Both the position numbers and the translations under genes were made by a program. From assembly GCA_009691765.1 (NCBI GenBank), contig SIAO01000002.1:64467-128466 (forward strand): DNA of 64,000 nucleotides. The letters are read 5' to 3'. Shown here piece by piece: positions 46,024-50,871 of this stretch (position 1 is its first letter; each line of letters opens with the position of its first letter). Under the pieces are notes generated by a model. That model had not been told where the DNA came from and did not search any database. It saw only the letters and a list, made by a program, of their open reading frames with translations. The stretch is from Planctomycetota bacterium. GTDB lineage: Bacteria; Planctomycetota; GCA-002687715.

Positions 46024-46205
46024 GCGCAGCGCCCTCACCGGTGCGTCGAAGAACCGACACCCCGTTACGAATTGGAAACAACCTACGGTGAATGACCCAA
46101 CGTACCGCCGGTGGGAGCATTGATCCAAACCACGGATTCCCAATGACTTGCGTTCCTTCGGCCATTTCAGCTGCGCACGGCACGCTGTGTGCTTATGTGT
46201 TTGGC

Positions 46206-47222
46206 ATGAAGCCCTTCACCCGCATGCCTGCACGCCAGCTGCTTTGCCTCTTTGTCGCCGTAGCCGCAGTGATCAGTGCATGCTCCTCCGGTTCTGAGAA
46301 CGCCGCTTCCAGCGGTACGAAGACGGTGCCAGCGGCCGCCGTACCGGCTCCAACAACGGCGTGGGAACGCGCAGGCCAAGTGACGCTTCCCGCTCGCAAA
46401 GGCACAGACATGCCAGGGCTTCACAACGTGTTCGTGCTCAGCAAGAACATCATCTCGGGTAGCGAACCGCACGGCCGCGAAGGCCTCGCGTCGGTCGCGA
46501 AGCTCGGGGTGAAAACAGTCATCTCTGTGGATGGCCAAGTGCCCGACGCTGAAGAAGCCCGAGCCCTCGGCATGCGCTATGTGCACTTGCCCATTCAATA
46601 CAAACAGATCGCGCAAGATGAGTGGATGGCGCTCACCAAAACTTTCCGTGAATGCACACCGCCCTTCTATGTGCATTGTTTCCATGGTCAGCACCGCGGG
46701 CCAACAGCAGCGGCCGTCGGACGTCGCACGCTCGATGCCGCCAATGCTGAGCAGGCCATAGCAGAAATGCGCCACTGGATGGGCACAGCCCAAATGTATG
46801 AAGGTCTCTACAGCACCATCCTCACACATGCAGTGCCAAGCGCTTCAAGCACCGCAGCGTTTACCTTTGCGTTCCCTGAAGCACAACGCCCCGATGGCAT
46901 CGCCGAGCACATGACGCACATTGCGCGCGCTCACGACGCGCTCAAAGCCCTCAACAAACTTGGTTGGAAGGCCGATGCAGAGCACCCAGATTTGGATGCC
47001 GGCAATGAAGCGCGCAAACTCGTAGCGCAAATGGACGCCAATTGGGCGCAAGACGCCGAGCCGCTGCTCGCAGGGTTAGCGGACGAACAGCGCACGGCAA
47101 CAACTGCTGCACACGCGCTGTTGCAGTCTCTCGAGAAAAAGGACCTCGCCGCAGCCAGCGCAGCATTTCTGCGCGTGGACTCAAGCTGCAAGGCCTGCCA
47201 CCAGCAATTCCGCAATCACTGA
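46206..47222 (+). CDS. Lipoprotein with tyrosine-phosphatase-like domain fused to cytochrome c'-like tail
   Basis: 338 residues from ATG 46206; MPARQLLCLFVAVAAVISAC gives a lipoprotein signal with the lipid-binding Cys near 25. Residues ~70-200 resemble a dual-specificity/tyrosine phosphatase: VKTVISVDGQVPDAEEARAL, then the HCx5R loop YVHCFHGQHRGPT with Cys158 and Arg164. Residues ~235-338 are helical and end in SSCKACHQQFRNH (haem motif CxxCH, Cys328), the C-terminal position typical of cytochrome c'. Both halves face the periplasm if the signal is right. The reaction is unknown; haem could report gas or redox state to the phosphatase part. The 182 bases upstream hold no gene. Confidence 0.78.
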   Translation: MKPFTRMPARQLLCLFVAVAAVISACSSGSENAASSGTKTVPAAAVPAPTTAWERAGQVTLPARKGTDMPGLHNVFVLSKNIISGSEPHGREGLASVAKLGVKTVISVDGQVPDAEEARALGMRYVHLPIQYKQIAQDEWMALTKTFRECTPPFYVHCFHGQHRGPTAAAVGRRTLDAANAEQAIAEMRHWMGTAQMYEGLYSTILTHAVPSASSTAAFTFAFPEAQRPDGIAEHMTHIARAHDALKALNKLGWKADAEHPDLDAGNEARKLVAQMDANWAQDAEPLLAGLADEQRTATTAAHALLQSLEKKDLAAASAAFLRVDSSCKACHQQFRNH

Positions 47223-48376: not shown

Positions 48377-49780
48377 ATGCGAGATGAAGCACTCACATGG
48401 GCCGGGGTCTGTGGCTTACTCACACTGATCCTGTTTTGGATTGGGCAGCGCAAGCTCCGTATGAAGCGCCTGATCCAAGACATCCCAACTTCGAAGGCTG
48501 CGGGCGTTTGCATTGGGCTCAGCGAGATCAAAGGCAAAGCCGAGTGCGAAGCGCCGCTCACGAGCTACCTCGCAGAGGCCGAGGTAGTTCACTACTCATG
48601 GAATGTGCAGGAACATTGGCGCCGCATCGAAACCTACACCGACTCCAAAGGGCGCACGCAAATCCGCGTCGTCAGCGGCTGGACCACCGTGGCCAGCGGC
48701 GGCGAGCAAATCCCGTTCGACTTGCGCGACACCACAGGCGCCGTGCGTGTCGAACCCGTGGGAGCTGATGTCGAAGGGCAGAGCATCTTCAGCCGCACTG
48801 TGAGCATCGAGCATCCGCTTTATTACGGCAAAGGTCCCGGCGGCGGCGTGCCCTATTCCACGTTCACGCGCTCGTTTTCTGAAACCGCCATCGTGAATGG
48901 CGCGCAGCTCTACATCCTCGGCAGTGCACGCTTACGCACCGAGGTGGCGGCGCCTGTCATCACACAGGTGAAATCCGAGGATCCGTACTTGATCTCGGTT
49001 CGCAGCGAAGAACAAATCGTGCGTGGCAAGGCTTGGGGCACAGCGCTCTGCCACATCGGTGGACTTCTCGGAGCCATGGCGATTGGCGCGATCCTCGACA
49101 CGACGCCCACGAGCACATGGGAACTCGAAGCCTCGTCCACTTCGTACCGGGTGTCGCGCGAATCGAACTTTGGCGATTTCCTTGCGGCCCATTGGCGCGG
49201 CTTGCTGCTTGGCGCTCTTTGCTACGGAGCGCTGCTCACGGCCGGATGGATGTGGCTTATTCACAATGGCCTCGTGCGCCTGCGCAATCGCCTGCACTCC
49301 GCGTGGAGTCTCGTCGATGTGCAACTCAAACGCCGTCACGACCTCATTCCCAATCTCGTGAAAGTGGTGCAAGGCTCGCAAAGACATGAGAAAGATCTGC
49401 AAACCCTGATCGCCGAAGCGCGCACGGCTGCCGCTGACGCACGCAGCAATGGCGACAATCTCAGCGAGATCAAGTCCCACGGCGGCGGATTGGTGAAGCA
49501 TCTCGTCGCCGTGCGGGAGGCTTATCCCGATCTCGGAGCCAACGCAAATTTCTCACGCTTGATGGATCAGCTCATCGACACGGAGGATCGCATCGCCCTT
49601 GCCACGCAGTTCTCCAACGACTGCCTCACCAATTTGCGCAATCGCATGGAGACCATTCCCGATCTGTTCGTGGTGAAGCTCGCGCGCTTCAGCCCCGAGA
49701 AGCGCGGCTGGTACAACGCCGCTCCTACCGAACGCGCCGTGCCAAGTGCGGAACTGACAGCTTCGCGCCGTGCGAGCTGA
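48377..49780 (+). CDS. GIDE domain-LemA domain fusion membrane protein
   Basis: 467 residues. An N-terminal helix (TWAGVCGLLTLILFWIGQ) is followed by a GIDE-type (E3 ubiquitin-ligase-like) extracytoplasmic domain without a RING finger: TSKAAGVCIGLSEIKGKAEC, YLAEAEVVHYSWNVQEHWRR, VPYSTFTRSFSETAIVNGAQ and ARLRTEV. Two more helices lie near 225 and 275. The C-terminal part is a LemA domain (IHNGLVRLRNRLHSAWSLVD, VQLKRRHDLIPNLVKVVQGS). The LemA part shares long identical stretches with the separate LemA protein at 29532. Function of either domain in bacteria is unknown. It overlaps no neighbour; the convergent RluA gene ends 3 bases beyond its stop. Confidence 0.85.
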   Translation: MRDEALTWAGVCGLLTLILFWIGQRKLRMKRLIQDIPTSKAAGVCIGLSEIKGKAECEAPLTSYLAEAEVVHYSWNVQEHWRRIETYTDSKGRTQIRVVSGWTTVASGGEQIPFDLRDTTGAVRVEPVGADVEGQSIFSRTVSIEHPLYYGKGPGGGVPYSTFTRSFSETAIVNGAQLYILGSARLRTEVAAPVITQVKSEDPYLISVRSEEQIVRGKAWGTALCHIGGLLGAMAIGAILDTTPTSTWELEASSTSYRVSRESNFGDFLAAHWRGLLLGALCYGALLTAGWMWLIHNGLVRLRNRLHSAWSLVDVQLKRRHDLIPNLVKVVQGSQRHEKDLQTLIAEARTAAADARSNGDNLSEIKSHGGGLVKHLVAVREAYPDLGANANFSRLMDQLIDTEDRIALATQFSNDCLTNLRNRMETIPDLFVVKLARFSPEKRGWYNAAPTERAVPSAELTASRRAS

Positions 49781-50606: not shown

Positions 50607-50850
50607 CCGGACCGCACTCCGCCAGCGCTAACTCTTGCCCATGCGAACGTAAGCGAGGGCAGAGTGCGGTCCGGAGGGGGCGGAGCATTCCGTTGGAGTG
50701 CATCCGAACCCGGAATGCGTAGTCCCCTCCGGCTGCACGGAGCCCATGCGAACGTAAGCGAGGGCAGAGTGCGGTCCGGAGGGGGCGGAGCATTCCGTTG
50801 GAGTGCATCCGAACCCGGAATGCGTAGTCCCCTCCGGCTGCACGGAGCCC
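50607..50850. repeat. Palindromic element: two identical 105-bp tandem units plus a partial inverted arm
   Basis: Units at 50641-50745 and 50746-50850 appear identical. Each contains nested inverted repeats: CCGGAGGGG with CCCCTCCGG (50671-50679 and 50724-50732 in copy one) and inside them GCATTCCG with CGGAATGC (50685-50692, 50711-50718), so each unit can fold into a long hairpin. Left of copy one, CCGGACCGCACTC (50607-50619) is the exact reverse complement of GAGTGCGGTCCGG inside the unit (50662-50674), and the sequence beyond it continues to resemble an inverted, decayed copy. This fills the 332-base gap between the RluA and YaaA genes; no gene is visible in it. Confidence 0.93.
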
Positions 50851-50871
50851 TTGCTCACAACTAGGCCGTGC

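Follow-up and report, generated by a model that had tools for sequence, protein, structure and literature searches.

A planctomycete lipoprotein joining a tyrosine-phosphatase-like domain to a class II cytochrome c domain, and the conservation of this pairing across Planctomycetota

The closest solved relative of the phosphatase domain described here is TpbA of Pseudomonas aeruginosa (PA3885; PDB 4r0s and 2m3v), a periplasmic dual specificity phosphatase (DUSP) that acts on TpbB/YfiN. TpbA shares with the present family the PTP/DUSP fold, an HCxHGxxR P-loop and export from the cytoplasm, and it is the best PDB match by both sequence and fold. However, it carries no cytochrome and has both the general acid Asp105 and a Thr after the P-loop Arg, whereas the family has HCxHGxHR with a His before the Arg, a Gly or Ser after it, and conserved Asp109, His127 and Tyr132. 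PRL (PTP4A) proteins also have a residue other than Ser/Thr after the P-loop Arg, with predicted slow phosphocysteine hydrolysis (PMC12192612), yet these are cytoplasmic animal proteins without haem and are only weakly similar to the family in sequence. Blh/DUF442 proteins (TIGR01244, NF040641) show weak profile similarity across the PTP-fold core, with matches far under the cut-offs, and they have no cytochrome, their partner domain being a dioxygenase instead.

On the haem side, cytochrome c'/c556 (PF01322) and the engineered cytochrome cb562 share a four-helix bundle and a C-terminal CxxCHxx[YF]R with the family at Foldseek TM scores of 0.6–0.74. The family differs from cytochrome c'/c556 in being fused to a phosphatase and in its diverged helices 1 and 2, and its invariant helix-1 Met is like that of c556/b562 and unlike c'. 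The highest TM scores to the cytochrome domain (0.73–0.76) are those of the class II-like Kusta0087/Kusta0088 (NaxLS) from the anammox planctomycete Kuenenia, a member of the same phylum. These proteins have no phosphatase domain, and the PDB mutants C32M/C101M suggest that their distal ligand is a Cys, not a Met. Each of the two domains therefore belongs to a known superfamily; what we found no description of is the pairing, the P-loop signature and a class II haem domain with an invariant Met together. The sequence-only reading had known of no protein with this pairing, and a full-text literature search likewise found no description of it, an earlier mention being possible in Burroughs and Aravind's rhodanese-phosphatase survey or in the NaxLS structure paper.

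The gene is located in a window of 64,000 nucleotides (the whole stretch of planctomycete DNA that was analyzed), and its features are collected in Table 1. An in-frame ATG is also present further upstream, at 46092, but position 46206 was taken as the start because the signal peptide is then N-terminal, matching the homologues. The VISA-C26 lipobox fits a predicted lipoprotein: Cys26 is kept in at least 90% of a 21-sequence alignment and a lipobox-like motif occurs in 85 of 128 homologues. As the sequence-only reading had it, an HCx5R loop containing Cys158 and Arg164 (residues 157–164) and a CxxCH tail (residues 328–332) are found within this one protein.

Table 1. Features of the fused gene (window positions) and positions of the unfused gene pairs on their own sequences
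Feature	Position	Strand	Remarks
Complete CDS	46206..47222	+	338 aa, stop included; secreted lipoprotein with PTP/DUSP-type phosphatase and class II cytochrome c domains
Lipoprotein signal peptide, ending at lipobox VISA-Cys26	46206..46283	+	From sequence
PTP/DUSP domain (about aa 67–210)	46404..46835	+	Pfam PTP-SAK; TpbA closest solved relative
Asp109-Gly110, family-specific pair	46530..46535	+	D109 in 126/128, G110 in 119/128
His127, family-specific conserved residue	46584..46586	+	127/128
Tyr132 (invariant) and Lys133	46599..46604	+	Lys133 aligns with TpbA general acid Asp105
P-loop H157-C158-F-H160-G161-Q-H163-R164-G165	46674..46700	+	Family signature HC[FH]HGxHR
G193-T194...Y198-x-G200-L201 motif, past the PTP core	46782..46808	+	Y198, G200 and L201 each in 127/128
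Class II cytochrome c domain, four-helix bundle	46896..47219	+	Helices 231–251, 265–277, 288–310, 314–335
Met236, proposed sixth (distal) haem ligand, helix 1	46911..46913	+	Met in 128/128 and in three split cytochromes
CKACH haem-attachment motif, Cys328, Cys331, His332	47187..47201	+	128/128
Arg336, four residues after His332 as in cytochrome c'	47211..47213	+	126/128
Unfused phosphatase/class II cytochrome pair, L186	4910-6078	same strand	
Unfused phosphatase/class II cytochrome pair, L187	8273-9935	same strand	
Unfused phosphatase/class II cytochrome pair, L188	6975-8071	same strand	

Searched as a single sequence against Pfam, the protein contains both expected domains, each less than one bit below the gathering score: PTP-SAK at residues 81–171 (E 5.7e-6; score 26.9, cut-off 27 bits) and Cytochrom_C_2 at residues 292–336 (E 2.3e-5; score 25.8, cut-off 26.5 bits). 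In the genome scan Cytochrom_C_2 reached 27.0 bits, above the cut-off of 26.5, and this was the sole match to that model in the protein's own genome. Across 21 homologues PTP-SAK was found in 17 and Cytochrom_C_2 in 19, and a PDB sequence search with the protein returned TpbA and cytochrome c'. Searching Pfam and NCBIfam for a better domain name gave weak or sub-threshold relatives only. AlphaFold2 modelled the whole protein with a pLDDT of 88.7, and together with Foldseek it gave both of the folds proposed earlier, including the four-helix bundle.

A profile of 21 homologues matched TpbA 2m3v in the PDB search (E 5.6e-11), and Foldseek of the AlphaFold2 model aligned TpbA 4r0s with a TM(target) of 0.73 (E 3.8e-6). 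Structural matches of the PTP domain comprised TpbA, Cdc14, VHZ and AtPFA-DSP1, with E-values of about 1e-5. Within the P-loop, Cys158, Gly161 and Arg164 are present in all 128 aligned copies, His157 in 127, and His160 and His163 in 125; because the Cys and Arg are invariant, the loop is under strong selection. Exported planctomycete PTPs outside the family, recovered in the same search, have HCxxxxxRT, so that the HC[FH]HGxHR signature sets the family apart from them. Past the core, the G193–L201 motif is probably the equivalent of the alpha4-alpha5/Q-loop. Regulation of Cys158 through a disulfide with another Cys was considered and rejected, since any other Cys of the PTP domain is present in at most 32 of 128 copies; judged from the alignment, such regulation is unlikely.

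Two features of classical PTPs, the general-acid Asp and a Ser/Thr after the P-loop Arg, are both missing in this copy. Of 128 homologues, 69 have Asp at position 133 and 59 have lost it; this copy has Lys there, and nearly all members of its clade carry Lys, Arg or Ser. This substitution went unremarked in the sequence-only reading, as did the phylum-wide extent of the pairing; the Gly after the P-loop Arg, which that reading did point out, proved to be the family norm (at position 165 Gly 101, Ser 24 and Ala 3 of 128). Cdc25 is a known exception to the rule of Ser/Thr after the P-loop Arg. PRL is another: in PRL1 a residue other than Ser/Thr at this site extends the phosphocysteine intermediate to more than 1 hour, and without both Asp and Ser/Thr the phosphocysteine is stable for weeks (PMC12192612). 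In TpbA, loss of the general acid through D105A costs only about half of the catalytic efficiency (PMC4409338), and by analogy the missing Asp is treated here as affecting activity and not membership of the fold. Because of these PRL1 and TpbA precedents for positions 165 and 133, the present protein may work as a phosphatase that turns over slowly or as a phospho-Cys switch, and relatives having Asp133 and Ser165 look conventional as phosphatases.

The cytochrome domain alone was modelled by AlphaFold2 with a pLDDT of 93.2. Its Foldseek matches (cytochrome c', cb562 and Kusta0087/0088; TM 0.6–0.76) had E-values of only about 0.01, so that the fold assignment draws chiefly on the sequence profile and on the CxxCH motif. 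A profile built from 86 cytochrome domains matched PDB cytochrome c' with an E-value of 7e-9, and profile-profile comparison matched proteobacterial class II cytochromes with a probability of 97.7%; against the c556-type and proteobacterial c' proteins helices 3 and 4 align, while helices 1 and 2 do not. Haem is almost certainly held covalently by Cys328 and Cys331 with His332 as proximal ligand, and attachment is to be expected, since a cytochrome c assembly protein of the CcsA type is encoded in the organism's genome.

The distal side of the haem is where the domain probably departs from the cytochrome c' type assigned to it in the sequence-only reading. Met236 is near the start of helix 231–251 and His332 near the end of helix 314–335, which places both at the same end of the up-down-up-down bundle. 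Other well-conserved aliphatic or aromatic columns of the domain mix L, I, V, F and M, while column 236 holds Met only, which is the behavior that a ligand would be predicted to show. The ligand Met7 of b562 falls on Met236 in a global alignment and three residues off in the HMMER local alignment. We consider it likely that Met236 is the distal ligand, which would make the haem six-coordinate, redox-active and c556-like. The class II fold of the earlier assignment stands; judged by residue conservation, an open-site five-coordinate haem of the c' type is unlikely.

Among 392 Planctomycetota genomes, a profile search located the fused protein in 134, from 32 family-level groups; the 134 carriers include a few copies cut by contig ends. 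Residue counts were taken from 128 aligned copies, 108 of which are pairwise below about 62–65% identity. Pro129, Tyr132, Cys158, Gly161, Arg164, Met236, Cys328, Cys331 and His332 are invariant in these 128, and Asp109, His127, His157, His160, His163, Tyr198, Gly200 and Leu201 are nearly so. Because the two motifs are in frame together and conserved in 128 homologues, their pairing is not due to chance. The gene can nevertheless be missing in close relatives, as in a genome of the same genus (G002). A homologue from a Planctomycetales MAG was identified by a non-exhaustive contig scan with six peptide patterns, and plasmid-borne homologues occur in Aquisphaera giovannonii (NZ_CP042998.1, locus L191, 5902-6837) and Planctomyces sp. 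SH-PL62 (NZ_CP011274.1, 75975-76787). The names given to deposited copies, either 'dual specificity protein phosphatase' or 'hypothetical protein', do not reveal the haem and call for correction, and a gas-sensing role should not be taken for granted for the haem domain.

Three unfused phosphatases with HCxxGxHR were present in the sample (L186, L187 and L188), two incomplete copies that run off their contigs (L181 and L182) not being counted as unfused. Each of them is directly followed, on its own strand, by a gene that codes for a small class II cytochrome lipoprotein. The split cytochromes matched the cytochrome-domain profile with domain E-values of 3.6e-12, 7.7e-8 and 3.7e-10 (three-sequence search), and each has retained the helix-1 Met. 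The downstream cytochrome is the sole match to this profile genome-wide in two of the genomes (G011 and G136) and one of two in the third (G012). As a control, eight loci with HCx5R phosphatases of another type were inspected and none had a class II cytochrome neighbor. The split pairs are independent evidence that both domains work together. In the phosphatase ORF of L187 (8982-9935, minus strand) what looks like a CsaA/tRNA-binding-type N-terminus abuts the central part of the PTP domain, and a second PTP-like repeat comes after it; this may be a junction, close to the end of the contig, that arose in assembly or through a deletion.

All 134 fusion carriers contain a strong haem-copper oxidase match, and the fusion is absent from every one of the 92 genomes that lack such an oxidase (Fisher 2e-20, a statistic that ignores phylogeny). 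Because phylogeny is uncontrolled, the association is to be taken as a lead and not as proof. The protein would be a lipid-anchored, extracytoplasmic Cys-based PTP/DUSP phosphatase of TpbA-like fold, permanently partnered with a class II c-type haem domain. It is reasonably likely that Cys158 and Arg164 dephosphorylate a substrate in the envelope by way of a phospho-Cys intermediate, with slow turnover in the present protein owing to Gly165 and Lys133. The haem would either exchange electrons with the cytochromes c of the envelope pool or sense oxidants, and its redox state might determine whether substrate reaches the P-loop or how fast it is turned over there, or might keep Cys158 reduced; for this exchange and gating we would claim something just short of an even chance. 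Dephosphorylation would then track the respiratory state. That the protein is an envelope phosphatase with its output coupled to respiratory redox state we regard as an evenly balanced proposition, and only tentatively do we extend it to a phylum-wide, redox-gated signalling enzyme in which an envelope Cys phosphatase is under the direct control of a c-type cytochrome electrically linked to the respiratory chain. Phosphorylation signalling and respiratory electron transfer, which are normally separate, here lie on one polypeptide, and the pairing is kept in dozens of planctomycete families even when it takes the form of two genes. We know of no described phosphatase controlled by a c-type cytochrome and of very little published on envelope phosphorylation in Planctomycetota. 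If the coupling is true, it would represent a novel mode of phosphatase control and offer an entry point to that phosphorylation.

Several other explanations of the same protein were weighed. Cytochrome c' is a known binder of NO and CO, and it had been suggested on that basis that a five-coordinate c' domain senses these gases and controls the phosphatase. The class II fold and the Cytochrom_C_2 match agree with this suggestion. However, cytochrome c' proteins have varied, non-ligating residues at the helix-1 position where this family has an invariant Met at the haem end, and helices 1 and 2 remain unaligned with the proteobacterial c'/c556 profiles. Met236, present in all 128 copies and retained by the three split cytochromes, is best interpreted as a sixth ligand; gas sensing is then improbable, and if the haem does control the phosphatase, redox coupling is the plausible route. 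The invariance of Cys158 and Arg164 speaks against a different reading, in which the protein is a pseudophosphatase that binds a phosphoprotein, or a switch that holds a long-lived phosphocysteine as PRL does, with the haem as an attached electron carrier or reporter. Gly or Ala after the Arg in 104 of 128 copies, the loss of Asp133 in 59 of 128, the weeks-long phosphocysteine of PRL1 lacking Asp and Ser/Thr (PMC12192612) and the presence of PRL among the weak PDB matches are all consistent with such a switch, but Asp133 in 69 of 128 and Ser165 in 24 of 128 make many relatives seem catalytically competent, and as an account of the family we hold it to be quite unlikely.

The P-loop domain could instead perform oxyanion or sulfur redox chemistry in the manner of the sulfurtransferase-like DUF442/Blh proteins, the haem accepting or donating the electrons. 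NCBIfam Blh was weakly matched by 19 of 21 members (best 4.9e-7) and the TIGR01244 sulfur transferase model by 14 of 21, and both the haem-copper oxidase association and the His-rich P-loop specific to the family would suit such chemistry. The protein itself nevertheless scores far under the curated cut-offs (20.7 against 85.85 bits for Blh, 16.9 against 625 for TIGR01244), its Cx5R loop has phosphatase spacing, and the closest solved relative is a tyrosine phosphatase, so that sulfur chemistry is on the whole unlikely though worth bearing in mind. An accidental or local gene fusion, or an assembly artefact, without functional meaning would be compatible with the sub-threshold single-sequence Pfam scores and with nothing else; 134 genomes in 32 family-level groups, together with adjacent split versions, refute it, and its probability is practically nil. 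The preferred reading is that of a phosphatase which may be coupled to the respiratory redox state.

Gene neighbors were compared at 21 loci (19 stretches of at most 20 kb, the Planctomycetales MAG homologue L002 and the window), with this gene and its antisense ORFs set aside, and none was common to more than four loci; the neighborhood therefore gives no clue to a substrate or kinase. By eye, PSCyt1-like proteins adjoin homologues. A search of the organism's own assembly for 16S gave none, and its phylum was deduced from these proteins, from the Planctomycetales MAG homologue and from the plasmid-borne homologues of Aquisphaera and Planctomyces. Class II-like cytochromes without a PTP domain were seen in the same genomes at L192 (640-1788, minus strand), L193 (654-1370, minus), L194 (419-1561, plus), L195 (568-1422, minus) and L196 (546-1355, minus), among which those of 381 and 383 aa seem to form a conserved family of their own that has a second helical region. 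Elsewhere in the window, positions 48377-49777 (plus strand) encode a GIDE-type (E3 ubiquitin ligase-like) domain and a LemA domain in one protein, and a 105-bp tandem repeat (2.1 copies, 99% matching) is located at 50637-50854 between the pseudouridine synthase and YaaA genes.
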